Source: an uncultured Ignavibacteria bacterium
Lineage (GTDB): Bacteria > Bacteroidota > Ignavibacteria > Ignavibacteriales > Melioribacteraceae
DNA: 15,932 nucleotides
Direction of reading: 5' to 3'
Assembly (NCBI GenBank): GCA_937930275.1
Contig: CALGLM010000194.1
Span: 1 to 15,932, forward strand
In this document: positions 1,783 to 13,316 of the stretch, piece by piece
Position numbering within the stretch: the first letter of the stretch is position 1
Layout of the letters: each line of letters opens with the position of its first letter
Notes under the pieces: model-generated
What the model saw: only the letters and a program-made list of their open reading frames with translations
Told to the model about the DNA's origin: nothing
Database searches by the model: none
Program-made: the position numbers and the translations under genes

Positions 1783-3492
1783 TTAAAAAATATTATATTT
1801 CTTCATCTTTCGCCATAAAGTAGTTAGATGAATACCCAGCTCGTTAGCGGTTTTAGTTTTATTATTCCCGTTTCTTTTAAGCGCTTCGCTAATTATCGAA
1901 ATTTCGCTATCGGATAATAAATTGTTTTTTGCTTGTGCTGTTTCTTTAAATTCAAGTGTTAATCTTTCCGGCAGGTGTTCGGGCATAATCATTTTACCCG
2001 GGCATAAAATAAAACAATGCTCAAGTACATTTTCAAGTTCTCGTATATTACCGGGCCATGTATAGGTAATAAAATACTTATATGCCAATGAAGAAATTCC
2101 CTCTATCGATTTATTAAATTTTTTATTAAAAGTTCTTAAAAAATGTTCTATTAATAAAGGTAAATCTTCAATTCGTTCACGCAGGGAAGGGAGATGTATA
2201 TTCATTACATTAATTCTAAAGTATAAATCTTCTCTAAAATTTCCTTTTTCAATTTCCGATTGCAAGTTTTTGTTTGTAGCCGCAATAATTCTGGCATTTA
2301 AGTTAATAGGTTTGTTACCGCCGACCCTTTCAAATTGTTTTGTCTCCAAAACTCGCAAAAGTTTTACTTGTACAGCCGGAGAAATATCTGCAACCTCATC
2401 CAAAAATAAAGTACCGCCGTTAGCCATTTCAAATCTGCCGATTTTAGATTTTACTGCTCCGGTAAATGCTCCTACTTCGTGCCCGAATAATTCGCTTTCA
2501 ATTAGTGTTTCGGCAAAAGCACTACAATTTACGGCAATAAAGGGGGCATTTTTATTGTTACTATTTAGATGAATTGCACGGGCTACCAATTCCTTTCCCG
2601 TGCCGCTTTCTCCGGTTATTAAAACAGAACTTTGTGTTTGTGCAACGCTAAGGCAAAGACTAAAGATACGTTCCATTACTTTACTTTTACCAATTATATT
2701 AGCCAATTTGTACTTTTCGGTTATGTGATCGGATAAATTTATTATTTCCGAAATGTCAACAAAAGTTTCAACAGCTCCAATTTTGGTGTTTTTGTTATCA
2801 AGTAAAATACCGGAATTAACCCTTATTTGTTTTATTGTGTTTTTCTTAGTATAAATTGCCAATTCGTTACCAATTGTAGCTGTTCCTTTTGTCATTGTTT
2901 CAATCATATGGCAATTTTTTTGGCATAAGTTAGATTTGAAAATAGTCCAACAATGTTTTCCAATTGCCTCATCTTTTTTGTAACCGGTTATTTTTTCGGC
3001 GGATTTATTAAACGATGTTATTCGCCAATCATTATCAATTGTAAATGTACCTTCAATATTGCTGTTAAAAATTGCCTCAAGTTTGTTTCGTTCGTTAATT
3101 AATTCAGTTGTTTTATTTTCCAACTGTTCTGCCAAAGCCACCATTTCTTTTGTATCTCTAAAAACGAAAACAACACCTATAATATCAACTTCTCCTTTTT
3201 GAACGGGAGTTATAGAAGCAAGAACGTTTTTAATTGTATTGTTTTTACAAAATATATCAATGGTAAGATTTGAAAAAGTTTGCCCGTTATTTAAGGCGTC
3301 TAAAATAAATCGCTTTGTTTCGCTATCCGCAAAAATTTTGTCACACTTTTTACCGATAAGTTCGTTTTCCGGATACCCGCTAATTCTTTCAACCGCTTCA
3401 TTTGTCGAAACCACTTCGCACTCTTTACTTAAAACTATTATCCCGTCCGGAATAATAAAACTTTCATATTTACTATCAATTTCTAAAGGCAT
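1783..3492 (-). CDS. Sigma-54-dependent transcriptional activator (PAS-PAS-AAA+-Fis HTH)
   Basis: An enhancer-binding activator of RNA polymerase-sigma54, 569 residues. Order: PAS domain 1 (about 10-115), PAS domain 2 (about 140-250), AAA+ domain (about 262-490) with Walker A GESGTGK (294-300), the sigma-54 contact loop GAFTGA (341-346), Walker B TLFLDE (361-366) and the FREDLYFR arginine-finger region (419-426), then a Fis-type helix-turn-helix (about 535-569, ending TTLWRKMKKYNIF). There is no receiver domain, so PAS ligand or redox sensing is the likely input. PAS 2 carries a C181-x8-C190-x3-C194 cluster. An in-frame ATG at 3585 exists, but the extra 31 codons merely translate the TGCA repeat array; the ATG at 3492 sits before the PAS fold and has a GAG-type site upstream, so I chose it. 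The gene diverges from the ten-gene operon that it probably activates, as DVU2106 does in the Desulfovibrio orp locus. Confidence 0.93.
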   Translation of the reverse strand: MPLEIDSKYESFIIPDGIIVLSKECEVVSTNEAVERISGYPENELIGKKCDKIFADSETKRFILDALNNGQTFSNLTIDIFCKNNTIKNVLASITPVQKGEVDIIGVVFVFRDTKEMVALAEQLENKTTELINERNKLEAIFNSNIEGTFTIDNDWRITSFNKSAEKITGYKKDEAIGKHCWTIFKSNLCQKNCHMIETMTKGTATIGNELAIYTKKNTIKQIRVNSGILLDNKNTKIGAVETFVDISEIINLSDHITEKYKLANIIGKSKVMERIFSLCLSVAQTQSSVLITGESGTGKELVARAIHLNSNNKNAPFIAVNCSAFAETLIESELFGHEVGAFTGAVKSKIGRFEMANGGTLFLDEVADISPAVQVKLLRVLETKQFERVGGNKPINLNARIIAATNKNLQSEIEKGNFREDLYFRINVMNIHLPSLRERIEDLPLLIEHFLRTFNKKFNKSIEGISSLAYKYFITYTWPGNIRELENVLEHCFILCPGKMIMPEHLPERLTLEFKETAQAKNNLLSDSEISIISEALKRNGNNKTKTANELGIHLTTLWRKMKKYNIF

Positions 3493-3530
3493 TATTATCT
3501 CGTAGTTTAAAAGCAAACTTACTAAAAGTA

Positions 3531-3597
3531 TTGCAAAAATGCAATAATCTGCAATACTATTGCAATATATATTGCAACATTGCAAATATTATTGCAG
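3531..3597. promoter_or_regulatory. Array of TGCA-centred dyads: probable activator binding sites (UAS)
   Basis: Seven TGCA cores lie in 67 bp, starting at 3532, 3540, 3550, 3561, 3573, 3581 and 3593, mostly within TTGCAA or TGCAAT. Positions 3560-3577 form a perfect 18-bp palindrome (TTGCAATATATATTGCAA). A second near-dyad of the same geometry (TTGCAA-N6-TTGCAG) follows at 3580-3597, 20 bp on and so on the same helix face. The array lies just upstream of the sigma-54 activator start and about 165-230 bp upstream of the predicted operon start site, the usual place for sigma-54 enhancer sites. Binding by the neighbouring regulator is inferred. Confidence 0.7.
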
Positions 3598-3736
3598 CTA
3601 TTTTAAATAAATATATTAAGTTTTTTTGCATTCAATTAATTCTAAATACCAATATATAATAATTTTTACTGCTAACATCTTATATTATAATAGGTTATCG
3701 TAATATGCGAGATACTTTTAAAAAATTGATAAAATG

Positions 3737-3753
3737 CGGCATGTTACTTGCAT
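3737..3753 (+). promoter_or_regulatory. Sigma-54 (-24/-12) promoter of the ten-gene operon
   Basis: The sequence CGGCATGTTACTTGCAT matches the sigma-54 consensus TGGCACG-N4-TTGCW closely. It has GG at 3738-3739, exactly 10 nt, then GC at 3750-3751. Transcription should begin near 3763, 17 nt before the ATG at 3780, whose GGA ribosome-binding site (3771-3773) lies within that short leader. The match, the upstream dyad array and the divergent sigma-54 activator support each other. Its position also argues that the first gene starts at 3780, not 3705. Confidence 0.75.
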
Positions 3754-3779
3754 ATAAAGTAAAAAATAACGGAATTAAA

Positions 3780-4832
3780 ATGTTAACAGAACAAAAAAAC
3801 AAAATCAAAAAAAATAACTTGTTTAGCACTATTAAACAAAGCATGATTGATTTTTGCGATAAGCTTGATAAAAGTTTATTAGATAACGCAGAATGTCGAG
3901 ATAAAATGATAATTGGGCCGGTGTACTCTCGAAGATTTGGGAGTATCTTAGTAATAAATAACGTTTTGTGCAAAACTTGTACATATAACTGTATCTATTG
4001 CCAAACAGGCGGAGCGGATTGCTGCAGAACCGAAAGAGGGACATGCTTTAGTCCGTATGAATTGTTCTTTTATGTAAGGAAAAAAATTGAAGAACTTGAG
4101 AAGGAGAATATAAAAATAAATTATATTGCTTTTAGACCAAGAGGTGAAGCCACTTTAGATTTGAATTTAGCTCATGAACTTAGGTTAATAAGAGAACTTG
4201 GTTATAAGACAATAGTTTTTACAAATTCTTCTTTAATATGGAATGAAAACGTGAAAGAAAATTTGTTGTTTTCGGATATTGTTTCGTTAAAAGTTGATAC
4301 AGTAAATGAAGCTATTTGGAAAAAAATAAATAAACCCCACAAACGACTTCCGTTTGATGCAATTTTAGAGGGGATAGTCGATTTTTCTAAGAATTACCAC
4401 GGCAAACTAACTACCGAAACAATGATTATTAAGGATATTAATGATAACATTGAAGAGATAAAAAATACATGTAGTTTTTTGTCATCATTCAAACGAGATT
4501 TATCGTATTTTTTTATTCCGCAGAGACCTCCGCAAAAAGGATACGCGGTTCCTCCGGAAGCAGAAGTTTTGGATAAAATTAAATTATTTGTCCCTGCCAA
4601 TTTAAATAACGTTAAAATGATTTGCTGTGACGATAGTTTACCTATTGAATTAAGCGGAAACTATGAAGAAGAATTACTGAAATTAATTTCAATAAAATCG
4701 GTTAAAGAAAGTGATGTTAAAAGTACAATTTTAAAATATGATTTGAAGAATAATTTATTGGATGAATGGCTTAAAAAAGAATTAATTGAAAAAATTGAAT
4801 ACAATAATGAGCATTTTATAAAAATAAAATAA
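3780..4832 (+). CDS. Radical SAM protein, TYW1-like/COG0731 family, with C-terminal winged-helix-like tail
   Basis: First gene of the operon, 350 residues from the ATG at 3780. The radical SAM cluster motif is C67-x3-C71-x2-C74 (within CTYNCIYCQ), preceded by the family's GPVYSRRFG segment; RGEATLDLN further on corresponds to the SAM-binding GE motif. COG0731 proteins are 4Fe-4S enzymes related to wybutosine synthase TYW1, and most members have no known reaction. The last 60 or so residues look like a small winged-helix domain. Extra cysteines follow the core motif (C81, C82, C89) and are absent from the operon's second copy. An upstream in-frame ATG at 3705 would add 25 residues but lacks a ribosome-binding site and lies upstream of the sigma-54 promoter. 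The protein is a paralogue of the gene at 7908-8843. Confidence 0.88.
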   Translation: MLTEQKNKIKKNNLFSTIKQSMIDFCDKLDKSLLDNAECRDKMIIGPVYSRRFGSILVINNVLCKTCTYNCIYCQTGGADCCRTERGTCFSPYELFFYVRKKIEELEKENIKINYIAFRPRGEATLDLNLAHELRLIRELGYKTIVFTNSSLIWNENVKENLLFSDIVSLKVDTVNEAIWKKINKPHKRLPFDAILEGIVDFSKNYHGKLTTETMIIKDINDNIEEIKNTCSFLSSFKRDLSYFFIPQRPPQKGYAVPPEAEVLDKIKLFVPANLNNVKMICCDDSLPIELSGNYEEELLKLISIKSVKESDVKSTILKYDLKNNLLDEWLKKELIEKIEYNNEHFIKIK

Positions 4833-4846
4833 GGAATTTTTAGTTT

Positions 4847-5701
4847 ATGTTAAACTCGCCCGGTTGTATATCCTGCATAGTTAAACAAGCATATTCGTTA
4901 AGTAATTTGATAGGAATAAAAGACCAAGAAAAACAGAAAGAAATAATATTTAGAACAATGGAAATGTTGTTGGCGAACAAAAATATTGAATCAGCTCCTC
5001 ACTTTTCGTTAATGATGTTGGATATTTTACGTGAGTATGTAAATGTTGACGAACATTTTGAGGAAATTAAAACCAAGAACGGAAAGTTGGCTGAAGGGTA
5101 TCTTAAATACCTGCGAATTATGATGAATGAAGCAACAGATAAAATTGAAATGGCGGTTAGAATTTCAATAATGGGGAATACAATTGATTTAGCCGCAAAT
5201 CCCAATTTTAATTTAGAGTCGGATGTAAATAAATTAACTTCAGATGATTATGATTTAAGTGTCCTTACAGAATTTAGGGATGAGCTTAAAAAAGCCAAAT
5301 CAATTTTATTTATTGCAGATAATTATGAAGAAGCAATTTTTGATAGATTTTTATTGGAGCAAATGGCAGATAAAGAATTGGTTTTTGCAACACGGGGCAA
5401 TAAAGTTTATAATGACATTACTTATGATGATGCAATTAATTTAGGGTATGATAAATTGTGCAAGGTAATAAACAGCGGAAGTATGATTGCGGGTACGGCG
5501 TTAGAGCAATGCACGGACGAGTTTATTAATTATTATAATAATAGCGATATTGTTATTTCAAAAGGACAGGGGAATTACGAAACTTTATTAAACGCAAAAA
5601 GACCGATTTATTTTTTATTTAAGGTTAAATGCGAAACTATTGCCGAAATAAGCAAGAGTAAATTATATACAAATGTAATGTTATATACAAAAGGAAAATA
5701 G
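4847..5701 (+). CDS. DUF89/ARMT1-like metal-dependent phosphatase family protein
   Basis: A 284-residue protein of the DUF89 (COG1578) family. The visible family marks are an N-terminal C7-x2-C10 (GCISCIVKQ), GNTIDLAAN at 110-118, the metal-site segment beginning D158-N159 (DNYEEAIFD; more usually DNAGEIVFD) and SKGQGNYE at 238-245. Characterised DUF89 proteins are Mn/Ni/Co-dependent phosphatases that clear damaged phosphometabolites. The substrate here is unknown, and the change of the usual GE to EE at 161-162 is a mild departure. It lies 14 bp after the radical SAM gene with an AAGGA site at 4831, and is clearly part of the operon. Its presence in a cofactor-maturation operon might mean it handles a phosphorylated intermediate; that is inference only. 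Confidence 0.88.
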   Translation: MLNSPGCISCIVKQAYSLSNLIGIKDQEKQKEIIFRTMEMLLANKNIESAPHFSLMMLDILREYVNVDEHFEEIKTKNGKLAEGYLKYLRIMMNEATDKIEMAVRISIMGNTIDLAANPNFNLESDVNKLTSDDYDLSVLTEFRDELKKAKSILFIADNYEEAIFDRFLLEQMADKELVFATRGNKVYNDITYDDAINLGYDKLCKVINSGSMIAGTALEQCTDEFINYYNNSDIVISKGQGNYETLLNAKRPIYFLFKVKCETIAEISKSKLYTNVMLYTKGK

Positions 5702-5727
5702 AATAACTAATTTAAAACGGAAAAAAA

Positions 5728-7068
5728 ATGAAAAAATATGATGTTGTTATTATAGGAGGCGGACCCGCCGGAGTTACTTGTGCATTATCGGCAAAAAATA
5801 CGTATCCTGAAAAACAAATTGCAATTATTAGAAAAGAACAAAAGCCGATGATTCCTTGCGGAATACCTTATATTATTAATAGGCTTAATAATGTAGATGA
5901 TAATATTTTACCGGATGCACCCTTAGCAGCCAATAATATTGATATTATTATTGATGAAGTTATATCGAGAGATGAAAAAAATGTTAAACTGGCAAGCGGC
6001 GAAAATATTGAATTTGAAAAATTAGTTTTAGCAATGGGTAGTAAGGCAGTTTTGCCCAAAATTGAAGGGATTGAAAAAGAAGGAATATTTCTTGTTAAAA
6101 AAGATAGCGAATATTTGGAAAAATTAAAAACCCAAATTTCGCAAGCCAATACTATTGCAATACTGGGAGGCGGCTACATTGGCGTTGAAATTACCGATGA
6201 ATTAATTTCGGCAAAAAAAAGAGTAATTATTGTTGAAATGGAAAAGACTTTATTACCCACTATGGATGAAGAATTCGGTAATAAAGTTAAAGAAATTTTA
6301 GTTACTGCGGGCTGTGAGGTAATAACAGGTAAAAGTATTTCCAAAGTTTTGGGAAGCGAAAAAATAAATGCGGTAGAATTAAATGACGGTACTATTATTA
6401 GAACCGATATGCTAATAGTTTCATGCGGCTATAAACCGAACTTAGAATTAGTTAAAAAATTGGGGGTTAATTATACCGAAGGATTAGGAATTATTGTTGA
6501 CGATTACTTACGAACAAGCGAAAAAGATATATTTGCAATAGGCGATTGTGCAGCAAAATACGATTACTTTACCGGAGAATACTCTAATATTATGTTGGCA
6601 AGTACTGCGATGGCGGAAGGAAGATTAGCAGGCTCGAATTTATATACAATAAAAGTTATAAGACAATATCAAGGTGTACTCGGTACGTTTTCAACCAAAA
6701 TAGGAAATATGGCATTTGCAGTTAGCGGAATAACCGAAAAACGTGCTAAAAGGAGAAATTTAGACTATATTATCGGCACTGCAAAAGCTGTAGATAGACA
6801 CCCCGGAAAATTAAGCGGTGCAAGTGAAGTTAATATTAAATTAATTTTTTCAACTTATTCTCATACTTTAATGGGATGTCAAATTTCGGGAGGGGACTCT
6901 ATTGGAGAAATGATTAATATGATTTCGGTTATTATATTAAATAAAATGACTGACATTGATATAAATACTTTACAAATAGGTACTCATCCTCTATTAACAT
7001 CGTCACCGGTTGTTTATCCCTTAATAAATGCTTCGGCAGATGCAATTAAAAAAAGACACAATAAATAA
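5728..7068 (+). CDS. FAD/NAD(P)-dependent oxidoreductase, CoA-disulfide reductase / NADH oxidase type
   Basis: A 446-residue flavoprotein of the pyridine nucleotide-disulfide oxidoreductase class. It has the N-terminal FAD motif GGGPAG (10-15), a single catalytic-type cysteine in MIPCGIPYI (C44), the NAD(P)-binding GGGYIG (147-152), the second FAD motif FAIGDCAA (269-276), and the C-terminal dimerisation domain. One cysteine at this place, rather than a CxxxxC pair, is characteristic of CoA-disulfide reductase, NADH oxidase/peroxidase and NAD(P)H-dependent persulfide/polysulfide reductases. Within an operon for iron-sulfur and possibly thiometallate chemistry, reduction of a persulfide, disulfide or polysulfide is the most attractive role, but the substrate cannot be read from the sequence. 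It follows the DUF89 gene by 26 bp with a GGA site before ATG. Confidence 0.9.
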   Translation: MKKYDVVIIGGGPAGVTCALSAKNTYPEKQIAIIRKEQKPMIPCGIPYIINRLNNVDDNILPDAPLAANNIDIIIDEVISRDEKNVKLASGENIEFEKLVLAMGSKAVLPKIEGIEKEGIFLVKKDSEYLEKLKTQISQANTIAILGGGYIGVEITDELISAKKRVIIVEMEKTLLPTMDEEFGNKVKEILVTAGCEVITGKSISKVLGSEKINAVELNDGTIIRTDMLIVSCGYKPNLELVKKLGVNYTEGLGIIVDDYLRTSEKDIFAIGDCAAKYDYFTGEYSNIMLASTAMAEGRLAGSNLYTIKVIRQYQGVLGTFSTKIGNMAFAVSGITEKRAKRRNLDYIIGTAKAVDRHPGKLSGASEVNIKLIFSTYSHTLMGCQISGGDSIGEMINMISVIILNKMTDIDINTLQIGTHPLLTSSPVVYPLINASADAIKKRHNK

Positions 7069-7084
7069 TATAAGAGATTAAGAA

Positions 7085-7906
7085 ATGGAAAATGCCGATA
7101 CGCAAAAATATATTGAAGAAGAAAGAAGAATTAAAGAAACAATATCAAAAATAAAAAACAGAATAGCCGTATTTAGCGGAAAAGGGGGAGTGGGTAAAAC
7201 TACGGTCGCAGTAAACCTTGCATATTCTCTTCAATCGGAAGGTTACGAAACAGGAATATTAGACGCTGATATTACCGGACCAAACGTGCCAAAGATGATG
7301 GGGATTAATTCCGAAGCGATTGTATTAAACGAATCATTATTCCCTTACGAAAAATATGGGTTAAAGATGATATCAATTGCGGGATTAATTGAACCGGGTA
7401 AAGCATTAATATGGCGCGGTCCTATGCGTTCTAAAGTAATAAATCAATTTTTGGCAGATGTTGAATGGGGTGAATTAGATTATCTAATTGCTGATTTACC
7501 TCCGGGTACCGGGGATGAAATATTAACCGTTGCTCAGCAAATGAGACCCGATTATGCGGTTGTTGTTACAACACCGCAAGAAGTTTCGGTAATTGACGCA
7601 GAACGTGCTATTGATATGGCTATACAGCTTAATATAAAAAATATCGGAGTTGTTGAAAATATGTCCGGTTTTGTTTGCCCAAATTGCAATTCTAAAATCG
7701 ATTTATTTGGTTCGGGTGGCGGTAAAAATCTTGCCGAAAAATATGGTGTGGACTTTTTGGGTTCAATACCGATTGATGCTAATGCACCTGCTTTGGGTGA
7801 TTTGGGTACGCCTATTGTGTTAAAAAATCCTGATAGTTTAGTTTCGGAAGCATTTGTTGAGATAGCAAAAAATATTTGTAATAAAATTAATGTGATTATA
7901 AAATAA
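7085..7906 (+). CDS. mrp: Mrp/NBP35-family iron-sulfur cluster carrier ATPase
   Basis: A 273-residue P-loop ATPase of the Mrp/ApbC/NBP35 family, which carries and transfers 4Fe-4S clusters to target proteins in the cytoplasm. It shows the deviant Walker A GKGGVGKT (32-39), the switch segment DADITGPNVPKMMG (60-73), ADLPPGTGDE (136-145) and the cluster-binding C198-P-N-C201 pair conserved in Mrp/NBP35. There is no N-terminal DUF59 domain, only a short charged helix. The DVU2109-type protein of the Desulfovibrio orp locus belongs to the same family. The start has only a weak purine-rich site 16 bp after the previous stop, and the next gene starts 1 bp after its stop, suggesting translational coupling. 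Confidence 0.95.
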   Translation: MENADTQKYIEEERRIKETISKIKNRIAVFSGKGGVGKTTVAVNLAYSLQSEGYETGILDADITGPNVPKMMGINSEAIVLNESLFPYEKYGLKMISIAGLIEPGKALIWRGPMRSKVINQFLADVEWGELDYLIADLPPGTGDEILTVAQQMRPDYAVVVTTPQEVSVIDAERAIDMAIQLNIKNIGVVENMSGFVCPNCNSKIDLFGSGGGKNLAEKYGVDFLGSIPIDANAPALGDLGTPIVLKNPDSLVSEAFVEIAKNICNKINVIIK

Positions 7907-7907
7907 A

Positions 7908-8843
7908 ATGATAGTATATGGTCCGGTTCCGTCAAGAAGATTAGGAAGGAGTATAGGAATTAATAATATTCCTCCAAAAAACTGCAGTTATTCATGCATT
8001 TATTGCCAAGTTGGAATTACTACAAAAAGAATATCAGTGCGAAAAGAATTTTATTCTACGGATGATATAGTAAAACAAGTAGAAATTAAGCTAAACGAAC
8101 TTTATAAAAAGAACGAAAATGTCGATTATCTTTCGTTTGTACCTGACGGTGAACCTACATTGGATATTAATTTAGGGAAAACCATAAGAAAATTAAGACA
8201 ATTTGGAATAAAAATAGCAGTTATTACAAACTCATCGTTGTTATGGGATGAAATCGTGAGGAGTGATTTATCATTTGCCGATTGGGTTTCCGTAAAAGTT
8301 GACACAGTAATTAATAAAGATTGGATAAAAGTTAATCATCCTGCAAAAGGTTTAGTATTGAATGATATTTTGCAAGGGATTAAAAACTTTAGAAAAGATT
8401 ATAGATCTGTATTAGTAACCGAAACTATGCTTGTAAGCGGAATTAACAGTAATGATGATAGCTTAAACGAAACAGCTAAATTTATAAGTACATTAAATGC
8501 TAAAAATGTATATATTTTAGTTCCGATAAGACCCCCTGCCGTTAAATTAGAAGAAGCAAACGAAACGATAATAAAAAATGCGTTAAGTATTTATTTCTAC
8601 TATAATAATAACGTAAAATTAATAAACTACAACGAGGGGAATAATTTTTCGTCTTTCTCTAATCCGATTGATGAGTTATTAAGTATTTTATCGGTTCATC
8701 CTATGCGTAAAGATGCCATAACCGAGTATTTTAAAAATGCACGGTTAGATGAGGGAGAGTTAAATAATTTGATTAACACGAAAAAAATAAAAGAAATAAG
8801 CTATAATAACACTCAATTTTACAAAACAAACAACGAGGTGTAA
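7908..8843 (+). CDS. Radical SAM protein, TYW1-like/COG0731 family (second paralogue)
   Basis: A 311-residue paralogue of the operon's first gene, sharing the block order GPVPSRRLG, C26-x3-C30-x2-C33 (CSYSCIYCQVG), DGEPTLDIN, TNSSLLWDE, VKVDTV, the TETMLV segment, PIRPP, and a similar C-terminal winged-helix-like tail. The core is the minimal COG0731 form, without the extra cysteines (C81/C82/C89) of the first copy, and with GEPTLD where the first has GEATLD. Like its relatives it should cleave SAM reductively with a 4Fe-4S cluster; the product is unknown. It starts 1 bp after the Mrp gene and ends 2 bp before the DUF5320 gene. Confidence 0.9.
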   Translation: MIVYGPVPSRRLGRSIGINNIPPKNCSYSCIYCQVGITTKRISVRKEFYSTDDIVKQVEIKLNELYKKNENVDYLSFVPDGEPTLDINLGKTIRKLRQFGIKIAVITNSSLLWDEIVRSDLSFADWVSVKVDTVINKDWIKVNHPAKGLVLNDILQGIKNFRKDYRSVLVTETMLVSGINSNDDSLNETAKFISTLNAKNVYILVPIRPPAVKLEEANETIIKNALSIYFYYNNNVKLINYNEGNNFSSFSNPIDELLSILSVHPMRKDAITEYFKNARLDEGELNNLINTKKIKEISYNNTQFYKTNNEV

Positions 8844-8845
8844 CA

Positions 8846-9049
8846 ATGCCAAATAGAGACGGTACGGGACCAATGGGAAAAGGAAGCGGTACAGGCAGAA
8901 GAATGGGAAAATGCAAAACACCCGAAGAAACGGCTACAAAAACCGAAAATTCGGAAATTTTGGGTATCGGTAGAGGAGGAAGACCAAGAGGGGGAGGAAA
9001 AGGAAACGGTTTTGGCGGCGGAAGAAGACGAGGAAATAATAAAGACTAA
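8846..9049 (+). CDS. DUF5320-like small Gly/Arg-rich protein
   Basis: A 67-residue protein beginning MPNRDGTGPMGKGSGTGRRMGKC. DUF5320 proteins begin in the same way (DGTGPMG...TGR..GxC) and are repeatedly found beside NifX/ORP-like proteins and MinD/ferredoxin ATPases in anaerobes. The C-terminal half is a glycine/arginine/lysine-rich low-complexity tail (GRGGRPRGGGKG...GGGRRRG). The single cysteine is at position 23. GAGGTG at 8835-8840 is a strong ribosome-binding site, and the gene is 2 bp from each neighbour. The small size and low complexity might suggest a spurious gene, but the family-specific N-terminus, spacing and ribosome-binding site all support it. Function unknown. Confidence 0.85.
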   Translation: MPNRDGTGPMGKGSGTGRRMGKCKTPEETATKTENSEILGIGRGGRPRGGGKGNGFGGGRRRGNNKD

Positions 9050-9051
9050 AA

Positions 9052-9387
9052 ATGAAAATAGCATTTTGTGCGTTAGAAAGTTGTATTGATTCCGTAATTA
9101 GCAGGCATTTTGGTAGAAGTAACTATTTTTTATTTTACGATACCGAAACTGATAGCTATTACATAAAAACTAACCCTACTGTTAATACAGTGGGCGCAGC
9201 AGGAATACAAACCGCACAATTTATTATTTCCCAAAATGTAGAGGTTGTTGTTACCGGAAAAATCGGTGATAATGCAATTAGATTTCTAAAATTAGCAAAT
9301 ATAAACATTATCACTGATTGCACCGGAAAAATTAAGGATCTTATCCCTTTACTGAAAATAAAAAATTATAAAAAATTACGTGCTTAA
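9052..9387 (+). CDS. NifX/ORP-family (dinitrogenase FeMo-cofactor biosynthesis domain) protein, copy 1
   Basis: A 111-residue single-domain protein of the NifX/NafY/NifB-C-terminal/ORP fold (RNase H-like). The visible marks are MKIAFCALE at the start, HFGRSNYFLFYD (19-30), GAAGIQTAQFI (48-58) and VVVTGKIGDNAIRFL (65-79). Family members bind metal-sulfur cofactors non-covalently; the Desulfovibrio orange protein binds a Mo-Cu sulfide cluster. No nitrogenase genes are in the window, so a link to nitrogen fixation is not supported. It follows the DUF5320 gene by 2 bp. It probably receives or stores a metal cluster, acting with the ATPases downstream. Confidence 0.92.
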   Translation: MKIAFCALESCIDSVISRHFGRSNYFLFYDTETDSYYIKTNPTVNTVGAAGIQTAQFIISQNVEVVVTGKIGDNAIRFLKLANINIITDCTGKIKDLIPLLKIKNYKKLRA

Positions 9388-9418
9388 ATATTGCACTAAT
9401 TAAAGAAAGGATTATTTA

Positions 9419-10258
9419 ATGATAATATCTGTAGCTTCGGGAAAAGGGGGAACGGGTAAAACTACTATTGCTACAAATTTAGCGGCAGTAATAAAAAACT
9501 CGACTTATGTTGATTGTGACGTAGAAGAACCAAACGGCGCAATTATACTTAAACCCGATTTTGATTATACTAAGTCGATTTATAAAAAACTACCCAAAAT
9601 TGATACTTTTAAATGTACATATTGCGGAAAATGCAAAACTGTCTGCGAATTTAATGCTATAGTATTTATTTTAGGTGAAGTTTTGGTTGTTGACGAAATG
9701 TGCCATAGCTGTGGTGCTTGTTCATATTTTTGCCCCGAAAATGCAATTAGCGAAATTGTAAAAGAAATTGGTAAAATAAATATCGGAAGAGCAGGCGAAA
9801 TTAATTTTATTGAAGGTGTTCTTAATATCGGTGAGGCTTCAGCTTCTCCCTTAATTAAAGAGTTGATAAAGACCAAAATTAATGACGGAGTTACAATTTT
9901 GGATTCGCCGCCGGGAACTTCGTGTAGTATGGTGGAAGTTGTTAAAAACTCCGATTATTGTATTTTAGTTACCGAATCAACTCCATTTGGATTGCATGAC
10001 TTAAAACTTGCAATTAAAGCAGTTAAAAACTTGGGAATTAATTTTGGAGTAATTATTAACAAATGCGATCCGATGTATAAAGAGTTAGATGAATATTTAG
10101 CCGTAGAAAATATTGAGATACTAACAAAAATTCCGTTTGAAAAAAAATATGCAGAACTTTATTCAAGCGGAGAATTACTTATAAAAGACACAATTTTTAG
10201 GGGAAAAATGCAATCTGTTTATCTGAATATTGAAAATAAATTAAAAGATATAAAGTGA
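9419..10258 (+). CDS. MinD-superfamily P-loop ATPase with inserted ferredoxin domain, copy 1 (COG1149)
   Basis: A 279-residue protein in which a MinD/ParA-type ATPase is interrupted by two 4Fe-4S ferredoxin motifs. Deviant Walker A GKGGTGKT lies at 8-15, then cluster I cysteines C66, C69, C72, C76 and cluster II cysteines C95, C98, C101, C105, then LDSPPGTSCSMVEVV and a MinD-like C-terminus. Paired proteins of this type (DVU2103/DVU2104) are partners of the orange protein in Desulfovibrio. The likely role is ATP-driven electron or cluster delivery to the NifX/ORP-like partner. The longest spacer in the operon (31 bp) precedes it, with AAGG at 9407-9410. Its stop codon overlaps the GTG start of the next gene. 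Confidence 0.95.
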   Translation: MIISVASGKGGTGKTTIATNLAAVIKNSTYVDCDVEEPNGAIILKPDFDYTKSIYKKLPKIDTFKCTYCGKCKTVCEFNAIVFILGEVLVVDEMCHSCGACSYFCPENAISEIVKEIGKINIGRAGEINFIEGVLNIGEASASPLIKELIKTKINDGVTILDSPPGTSCSMVEVVKNSDYCILVTESTPFGLHDLKLAIKAVKNLGINFGVIINKCDPMYKELDEYLAVENIEILTKIPFEKKYAELYSSGELLIKDTIFRGKMQSVYLNIENKLKDIK

Positions 10259-11148
10259 AAAGTAAAATAAATAAAATAATAGTTTTAAGCGGGAAAGGCG
10301 GAACCGGAAAAACAACGGTTGCTTCGGCATTTAATAAATTAGCCCAAAATAATATAACTGTTGACTGTGATGTGGATGCAGCGGATTTATTTATTTTATT
10401 AGATCCGGAAATTAGAGAGACTACTAATTTTATTGGGGGAAAAAAGGCAAAAATAAATTATGATGCTTGTAATTACTGCGGGTTATGCGAAAATTTATGC
10501 CGTTTTGATGCCATAAAAAATTTTTATATTGATACCGTTAGCTGTGAAGGATGCGGATTATGTTTTAGGGCATGTCCCGCAAATGCAATAACATTTGAAT
10601 CGGTTACTGTCGGTGAAATATATATTTCGGAACTAAGAGACAAAAACAAATTTTATTTTGCGGAATTATTCCCGGGTGAAAGTAATTCGGGAAAATTAGT
10701 ATCAAAACTAAAAGAAAAACAAGAAAATTACATTAAAGCTAATAAAACAGATTGGGTAATAATAGATGGTCCACCCGGAATCGGTTGTCCGGTTAACGCA
10801 AGTTTGGCAGGTGTTGATATTGCCGTTTTAGTTACGGAACCGACTTATTCAGGTCTGCACGATTTGGAAAGATTAATAAAATTACTTCAAACATTTAAAA
10901 TTAGAAGTACGGTAATAATTAACAAATACGATTTAAATCTTTCTATAAGTAAAAAAATTGAAGATTTTATTAATAAAAACAAAATTAGCTTGTTGGGGCA
11001 TTTATCTTATAATTATGCTGCGGTTCGTGCATTACAAAACAAAAAAACAATTGTTGAATATTCGCCTACTCTTAGCGGCGAGATAAATAATATTTGGAAA
11101 AATTTAATAAATTTATTAAACGGAGAAATAAATGAAAATTGCAATTAG
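10255..11148 (+). CDS. MinD-superfamily P-loop ATPase with inserted ferredoxin domain, copy 2 (COG1149)
   Basis: A 297-residue paralogue of the preceding gene, with Walker A GKGGTGKT (13-20), two 4Fe-4S motifs (C72, C75, C78, C82 and C97, C100, C103, C107), IDGPPGIGCPVNASL and a longer loop between the ferredoxin insert and the ATPase half. It starts at GTG 10255, which overlaps the preceding TGA stop in GTGA, so the two should be translationally coupled. That fits obligate pairing of the two ATPases as a heterodimer, as inferred for the Desulfovibrio pair. Its 3' end overlaps the next gene by 17 bp. Confidence 0.95.
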   Translation: MKSKINKIIVLSGKGGTGKTTVASAFNKLAQNNITVDCDVDAADLFILLDPEIRETTNFIGGKKAKINYDACNYCGLCENLCRFDAIKNFYIDTVSCEGCGLCFRACPANAITFESVTVGEIYISELRDKNKFYFAELFPGESNSGKLVSKLKEKQENYIKANKTDWVIIDGPPGIGCPVNASLAGVDIAVLVTEPTYSGLHDLERLIKLLQTFKIRSTVIINKYDLNLSISKKIEDFINKNKISLLGHLSYNYAAVRALQNKKTIVEYSPTLSGEINNIWKNLINLLNGEINENCN

Positions 11149-11455
11149 TTCCATGGGGGATAGTCTTAATTCGTTTGTTAGCGAAAAATTTGGGAGGTGT
11201 CCGTATTTTATAATATTTAACACCGAAGATAACGTGTTTGTAAGTATAAAAAATCCCAATGTGGAATTACAAAACTCGGCAGGTATAAAAGCATCGGAAA
11301 TAATAATTGAAAACGGGGCGGAAATATTGCTTACGGGGCATGTAGGTGATAAAGCGGAAAATATTTTAGAAAAAGCAAAAATAAAAATGATTACCGGGTA
11401 CGATTCTTCAATACAAATTAAAGATGCTATAAATAGTTATTTAACAAAAAAATAA
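11132..11455 (+). CDS. NifX/ORP-family protein, copy 2
   Basis: A 107-residue protein of the same RNase H-like NifX/ORP fold as the gene at 9052. Shared marks are MKIAISS, KFGRCPYFIIF (19-29), NSAGIKASEII (48-58) and ILLTGHVGDKAENIL (65-79). It differs by C23 in the GRCPYF segment (SNYF in copy 1) and a histidine in TGHVGD (TGKIGD in copy 1); GRCPYF and TGH.G are the more usual forms in this family, so this copy may be the better cofactor binder. The ATG lies inside the preceding gene, with GGAG at 11122-11125. It is the last gene of the operon. Confidence 0.92.
   Translation: MKIAISSMGDSLNSFVSEKFGRCPYFIIFNTEDNVFVSIKNPNVELQNSAGIKASEIIIENGAEILLTGHVGDKAENILEKAKIKMITGYDSSIQIKDAINSYLTKK

Positions 11456-11912: not shown

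Positions 11913-13316
<1,404 letters not shown>

Follow-up and report, generated by a model that had tools for sequence, protein, structure and literature searches.

Organization of the Locus

The window analysed here is a 15,932 bp stretch of DNA from an uncultured Ignavibacteria bacterium (contig CALGLM010000194.1). Its main feature is an operon of ten genes, located at positions 3705–11455 on the plus strand, which combines NifX-fold proteins, MinD-type ATPases and radical S-adenosylmethionine (rSAM) enzymes and lies divergent from a sigma-54 activator gene. The genes were close-packed, with gaps of at most 31 bp and two overlapping pairs, in the order rSAM1, DUF89, CoA-disulfide-reductase-like (CoADR-like) flavoenzyme, Mrp, rSAM2, DUF5320, NifX1, MinD1, MinD2 and NifX2. 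All ten open reading frames (ORFs) were confirmed and their domains assigned by Pfam, and every family that a first-pass annotation of this DNA had named in a ten-gene operon was present. The interval given there, 3492–11455, encloses the operon and leaves the divergent activator almost wholly outside.

Both rSAM1 (3705–4832) and rSAM2 (7908–8843) are COG0731-type enzymes matching PF04055. The start of rSAM1 is probably located near position 3780 rather than 3705, because most of its listed relatives (at least 257 among the matches listed, which is not a family size) are about 340–365 aa long. One rSAM1 relative is encoded by the cultured Ignavibacterium album JCM 16511. Beyond the CX3CX2C motif, rSAM1 possesses a cysteine-rich patch and a CC pair at residues 307–308 (longest-ORF numbering). 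The only conserved cysteines of rSAM2 are Cys 26, 30 and 33 of the SAM cluster, as observed in 120 of its 120 best relatives. The tRNA wybutosine synthesis enzyme TYW1 has a second Fe-S cluster held by extra cysteines. In comparison, rSAM2 retains just the three conserved cysteines and does not have those of a second cluster, rSAM1 has other extra cysteines, and the neighbouring genes are Fe-S genes, not tRNA genes. Wybutosine synthesis was thus ruled out for rSAM2 by cysteines and gene context, and for rSAM1 by gene context alone.

The DUF89/ARMT1-like gene (4847–5701, PF01937; nearest solved structures 2g8l and 2ffj) is followed by the FAD/NAD oxidoreductase (5728–7068, Pyr_redox_2/Pyr_redox_dim), which scored 226.6 bits against the CoA-disulfide reductase equivalog TIGR03385, below the cut-off of 578.8. 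Described beforehand as a “single-cysteine” flavin reductase, it does have one cysteine in the active-site motif IPCGIPY and has further cysteines elsewhere in the protein. The Mrp/NBP35-type P-loop ATPase (7085–7906, PF10609, CPNC motif) is a one-domain protein of 273 aa. It reached 312.2 bits with the MrpORP model NF041136, below the cut-off of 450, over profile positions 2–251 of 365. DUF5320 (8846–9049; PF17253, 37.7 bits for a cut-off of 27) precedes NifX1 (9052–9387, PF02579). The two MinD-type ATPases (9419–10258 and 10255–11148) each carry an inserted two-cluster ferredoxin domain (Fer4 + CbiA), and NifX2 (11132–11455, PF02579), with an FGRC motif, ends the operon. An ORF of 609 aa at another locus (L039:2870–4696) appeared, from its length and unaligned score, to be a fusion of both MinD-ferredoxin ATPases, which would fit their acting as a pair.

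Recurrence of the Gene Set

Among 159 genomes of one class (the class of G001), relatives of MinD2 (E-value 1e-40 or better) were found in 15 and relatives of the rSAM enzymes (1e-25 or better) in 28. An rSAM gene was located within 5 kb of MinD on the same contig in four of the 15 MinD2-bearing genomes (G069, G157, G276 and G158) and was not found at that distance in the other 11, some of which have short contigs; the full gene set is therefore not universal. The locus of G069 (L138) contained all ten genes and the divergent activator in the order of the window, with identities of 39%–73% and with insertions encoding a CGGC protein, a PNPOx-like protein, a carbohydrate-binding-like protein and a third NifX. 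A pyruvoyl arginine decarboxylase gene followed the module there, and rSAM2 was split by a frame break. In G157 (L139), the genes were distributed in two operons, DUF89-CoADR-Mrp-CGGC and rSAM1-rSAM2-DUF5320-NifX-MinD1-MinD2-NifX2, the second being divergent from the activator. The gene for the CGGC-domain protein lies 3' of Mrp in both genomes (L138:11782–12243, PF08821 by Pfam; L139:5029–5469, by likeness to L138) and is absent from the window; its product is possibly a further member of the module.

More dispersed arrangements were also observed. In G058, the activator was divergent from DUF89-CoADR-(two genes)-Mrp (L182), NifX-MinD1-MinD2-NifX2 lay approximately 3–4 kb beyond these genes (L142), and rSAM2, DUF5320 and NifX were on a separate contig (L141). 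The G276 locus (L140) had the activator, rSAM1, DUF5320, MinD1, MinD2 and NifX2 interspersed with unrelated genes, and that of G197 (L143) had the activator, DUF5320, NifX and rSAM2 without MinD.

From the window alone, the breadth of this recurrence could not have been known. The MinD-NifX core, with varying extra genes, was found in Ignavibacteriota, Bacteroidota, Omnitrophota, Planctomycetota, sulfate reducers and archaea. Eighty loci, the best of 312 confirmed MinD2 relatives from one scan, covered many bacterial and archaeal phyla and were often cut by contig ends. With the window subtracted, NifX was present at 69 of them, Mrp at 33, DUF89 at 17, DUF5320 at 16, rSAM at 14, the activator at 11 and the CoADR-like gene at 8. 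When shorter ORFs were admitted, stand-alone DUF5320 genes were found at 25 of the 80.

Linkage was then counted in 48 of these genomes, searched whole and picked for the MinD core, with random placement as the expectation and the weakest NifX matches unlisted. Of 67 DUF5320 genes, 48 had NifX no more than 5 kb away, where 0.89 would be expected, and eight of these 48 were fusions; 15 had DUF89 and 15 had rSAM at that distance (0.29 expected for each). An rSAM gene was near NifX in 12 of 42 cases (0.60 expected), DUF89 near NifX in 10 of 48 (0.61 expected) and DUF89 near rSAM in 7 of 48 (0.23 expected). At least one of NifX, DUF89 and rSAM was close to 55 of the 67 DUF5320 genes and none to the remaining 12. 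The four families thus cluster far above chance in these genomes, and no member is universal. The presence or absence of DUF5320 and rSAM showed no clear dependence (29/38 versus 5/10). Proteins of the window-type CoADR clade (scores above 300 bits) numbered 13 in 59 genomes; seven of them were linked to the module, and the clade was rejected as a fixed member. In Methanohalophilus, rSAM, DUF5320 and a putative DUF134-like gene adjoined (L190:7751–9674, minus strand), with no NifX labelled in the 14 kb covered.

The first-pass annotation had expected the extra genes to accompany the ATPase/NifX core and had named a lack of such co-occurrence as evidence against its view. The comparison was run and did not refute that view, because the extra genes co-occur with the core and, in G157, have a common candidate operator. 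The association is above chance across phyla and holds in some relatives, and it is partial (rSAM in 4 of 15 genomes, the flavoenzyme in 7 of 13 cases). Judged by titles and abstract openings, none of the papers listed for DUF5320, for COG0731/DUF89, for orange protein (ORP) with rSAM or NifX, and for the dinitrogenase cofactor with rSAM or MinD described this gene set.

Activator and Candidate Operator

The sigma-54 activator gene (approximately 1783–3492, minus strand) encodes two PAS domains, an AAA+ domain with the GAFTGA motif and a Fis-type helix-turn-helix (Pfam Sigma54_activat/PAS/HTH_8). Position 3492 is the probable start codon, and the longest ORF starts at 3585. The second PAS domain contains the motif C-X8-C-X3-C (residues 212, 221 and 225 of the longest ORF). 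Fifteen of 16 homologues in the alignment have all three cysteines, and the sixteenth (L016) is masked at those positions.

The palindrome TTGC-N6-GCAA occurred twice in the window, at 3531–3544 and 3572–3585, both times between the activator and the operon (0.33 expected; 10 of 200 shuffles reached two). Seven control regions from six loci contained nine palindromes, compared with a mean of 0.06 and a maximum of 2 in 500 shuffles. Elsewhere in the six loci only two copies were seen, both in L143, just inside the longest activator ORF. A whole-genome search for tandem palindromes returned exactly two sites in G157, one 5' of each operon, and one site in G197, at the activator-DUF5320-NifX locus. 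G069, G058 and G276 gave no tandem match; they have single copies, lying only at the module loci. From this distribution, the palindrome is a candidate operator to which the activator may bind. Taken together, synteny, the shared palindromes and the linkage counts rule out a chance neighbourhood of unrelated genes.

As a general means of finding the regulon, the tandem palindrome was rejected. It matched in 30 of the 159 genomes (8 in the reversed control) with most sites unassigned to the module; palindromes elsewhere may therefore be background or other elements. Among them, a similar 46 bp element with two palindromes was present in five genomes (L150, L151, L152, L153 and L155, in G194, G147, G268, G249 and G081). 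In contig C44 of G147 (L180), tandem pairs at 8069/8100 and 11133/11165 were found some kilobases from another sigma-54 activator, near putative cytochrome-like and molybdopterin-like genes, and perhaps mark a separate regulon.

The module is probably controlled by sigma-54. With scoring weights set by the analyst, the best sigma-54-like sites of the seven regions summed to 90, as compared to a shuffle mean of 70.7, and none of 500 shuffles scored as high. The site of the window in this set is the candidate −24/−12 promoter CGGCATGTTACTTGCA at 3737–3752 on the plus strand, which is weak taken singly: it is one of 18 window sites (7.2 expected) given by a loose scan allowing two mismatches.

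DUF5320 and the NifX Proteins

The DUF5320 protein of the window has 67 aa, with a pI of 11.2, 20 glycines, 15 lysines or arginines and one aromatic residue, and its gene is located 2 bp upstream of NifX1. The family has a conserved start, MP..DGTGP.G.GP.TGR..G.C. In Pyrococcus furiosus, IssA consists of a NifX-fold domain and a 70-residue tail that is cationic, rich in glycine and aromatic residues, and has a pI of 10.7; the tail was proposed to wrap thioferrate, and some members of the clade have little or no tail (PMC5524996).

Among 170 NifX-domain ORFs, 32 extended at least 25 residues past the domain, and 13 of these tails were Gly/Arg-rich. A profile built from 38 stand-alone DUF5320 proteins matched 12 of the 32 long tails by more than 10 bits, scoring higher in each case than any of 200 shuffled versions of that tail. 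In most of the matching tails, a stretch rich in Gly, Arg and Met was accompanied by a helical end. Mere composition was rejected as the cause, as the strongly Gly/Arg-rich tails of L018, L052, L064 and L079 failed where 12 of 32 passed. PF17253 and PF02579 were both above cut-off in a single open frame in eight of the 48 genomes; two of ten candidates (G309 and G315) were not one open frame and were left uncounted. The single fusion ORFs of L023 and L060 passed both cut-offs when scanned alone, and in L060 the fused part is the conserved start of DUF5320. With fusions elsewhere, and with NifX1 and NifX2 here extending only 2 and 0 residues beyond the domain, we infer that DUF5320 may act as an IssA-type tail in trans. 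By analogy, it looks like a detached IssA tail, its position matching that of the cationic Gly-rich tail.

A FastTree analysis of 179 NifX domain segments (a short domain, with midpoint root) grouped the Desulfovibrio gigas ORP with L064, L038 and L044 (support 0.93) and placed the NifX proteins of the window in a separate clade of 18 (0.74). The best solved match by sequence was MTH1175, for both NifX1 (2.8e-10) and NifX2 (6.5e-12); MTH1175 was classed as IssA-type (PMC5524996). At a Pseudodesulfovibrio locus (L038:1–675), a putative DUF134-like end, a Gly/Arg/Gln-rich stretch and the ORP-type NifX domain are joined in a single frame, which is open where the locus starts.

The fusions, the palindromes and the extra cysteines of rSAM1 all go beyond the first-pass annotation.

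Host and Neighbouring Gene

The host is a Melioribacteraceae-like, oxygen-avoiding member of the Ignavibacteriota. The named organisms among the 120 listed relatives of rSAM2, and likewise of MinD2, were mostly Melioribacteraceae and other Ignavibacteriota. The evidence behind the earlier assignment to a bacterium with a type IX secretion system is a single partial ORF at the edge of the window, in which a Por_Secre_tail sorting domain scores 50 bits. Downstream of the operon and convergent with it, positions 11913–13316 (minus strand) encode a beta-eliminating lyase, putatively of the tryptophanase type. Such lyases can liberate sulfide from cysteine.

Proposed Function

We tentatively favour, while holding it slightly short of an even chance, a conserved anaerobic module which would assemble or store an anionic metal-sulfide, most likely an iron-sulfide, on NifX scaffolds and deliver it to targets. 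The operon, its recurrence, the palindromes and the DUF5320-NifX fusions are observed, and the biochemical steps of this model are inferred. NifX1 and NifX2 would form the scaffold, and DUF5320 would wrap the anionic cargo as a cationic IssA-type tail in trans. The MinD-ferredoxin pair may spend ATP on moving electrons to the cargo or on releasing it, and Mrp may carry clusters to apo-proteins, like MrpORP, which transfers clusters to Orp3-Orp4-Orp8 in vitro (PMC6345978). The CoADR-like enzyme would produce sulfide or keep thiols reduced. The cargo or a partner would be modified by rSAM2 and by rSAM1, which possibly has an additional Fe-S site, and DUF89 would be a putative phosphatase. The PAS cysteines of the activator may sense redox, sulfide or Fe-S status. 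Expression results from other organisms agree in direction, indirectly: DVU2109 was at −2.20 ± 0.3 in a DsrC-perturbed strain of D. vulgaris (PMC6470260), and in M. voltae grown on pyrite the IssA-clade proteins Mvol_0689 and 0693 and the rSAM proteins Mvol_0696 and 0698 were more abundant, their adjacency being read from gene numbers alone (PMC9431491).

A more specific form of this model, a split IssA, is conceivable and appreciably less probable: bacteria would store or buffer iron sulfide by means of a tailless NifX scaffold and a separate DUF5320 peptide, the latter wrapping the anionic iron-sulfide chain, with an ATP-driven reductase pair dedicated to it and with the rSAM enzymes modifying scaffold, peptide or cargo. 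If true, this would make DUF5320, a family without assigned function, the mobile half of a device for mineral storage across many anaerobic phyla.

Several observations weigh against the metal-sulfide module. The stand-alone copies behind the DUF5320 profile come from these same loci, and some tail matches depend on the helical end and not on the Gly-rich part (L037 on the helical end only). The window DUF5320 has one aromatic residue compared with 14 of 70 in the IssA tail, and its NifX partners are tailless; thioferrate binding is therefore an analogy. The solved matches were near-ties, with the Thermotoga protein 1rdu for NifX1 (5.1e-10) and with ORP for NifX2 (6.4e-11). DUF89 and rSAM occurred at just 17 and 14 of the 80 MinD loci, partly on account of short contigs, and six CoADR clade members could not be linked to the module, one of them (L187) starting at the end of a contig. 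A strict sigma-54 scan gave no plus-strand match in L138 or L139, the sites being degenerate. The rSAM proteins that were more abundant in M. voltae belong to other types than those of the window (PMC9431491), and the tie of the D. vulgaris ORP complex to cell division (PMC6345978) is unaccounted for by the present model.

NifB is often an rSAM-NifX fusion, though not in every case, and FeMo-cofactor assembly by NifB and NifX likewise combines NifX-fold proteins and Fe-S carriers with enzymes of the rSAM kind. In a route of that kind, which we consider unlikely, rSAM1 and rSAM2 would act on a NifX-held Fe-S precursor of a special metallocofactor, and MinD and Mrp would deliver it to an enzyme. 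However, rSAM and NifX are here in separate genes, the rSAM enzymes are of COG0731 type, no NifB model was among the listed NCBIfam matches, and the window has no nitrogenase genes. The Z score of the rSAM2 model for NifB was within 1.6 of those for PFL-AE (18.8), RlmN (17.6) and TYW1 (17.2). At residues 29–41, beside the SAM cluster, the model has low confidence (pLDDT below 50). The operon contains no client enzyme, and most MinD-NifX loci show no rSAM.

The view of the first-pass annotation, in which the locus is a more complete ORP pathway and the NifX proteins carry a Mo-Cu sulfide cluster during its maturation, appears less likely again. In its favour, the core genes fit the orp layout of D. 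vulgaris as had been claimed, and so does the sigma-54 activator divergent from them. The NifX proteins nevertheless fall outside the ORP clade, Mrp does not have the second domain of MrpORP, and apart from the name of PF02579 no molybdate- or copper-linked family is among the ten genes.

A cell-division or positioning complex, with the MinD ATPases as its centre and the Fe-S parts as sensors, is improbable. In its favour, the targets of DVU2106 are filed under cell division and the ORP complex is “putatively involved in cell division” (PMC6345978), but the extra genes encode redox, rSAM and phosphatase-like enzymes, and the DUF5320-NifX fusions point to a scaffold. We give the same slight chance to a small-peptide system in which DUF5320, with its conserved start, would be the substrate of a neighbouring rSAM enzyme.

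Comparison with Known Systems

The ORP complex and IssA are among the nearest known systems, alongside NifB/NifX assembly and TYW1. With the ORP complex of D. vulgaris (DVU2103–DVU2109), the locus shares the ferredoxin-inserted MinD pair, a one-domain NifX-fold protein, an Mrp ATPase and a divergent sigma-54 activator with palindromic sites, whose role as binding sites here is presumed; the core genes and the activator correspond to the published orp layout (PMC6345978, PMC3897727). The orp promoters likewise bear palindromic DVU2106 sites (PMC3897727). The members named in the published account, Orp3, 4, 5, 8 and 9, do not include an rSAM, DUF89 or CoADR-like protein (PMC6345978). MrpORP has two domains with a C-terminal NifX domain, whereas the Mrp of the window has one domain without the NifX part, and the window NifX proteins are outside the D. 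gigas ORP clade. “Expanded ORP”, as the locus had been called, does not hold as written and therefore describes a relation, not membership.

With IssA, the locus shares the NifX-fold domain (IPR003731/PF02579) and a cationic Gly-rich tail, present here as the separate DUF5320 and absent from the NifX chains themselves. Unlike IssA, the set of the window has ATPases and rSAM enzymes around it. The locus is a variant of the ORP/IssA kind and a member of neither. The storage and rationing of iron and sulfide by anaerobes are poorly known, and IssA and the ORP complex have so far been separate cases. This locus joins the two and gives DUF5320 a concrete, testable role, together with a candidate operator.

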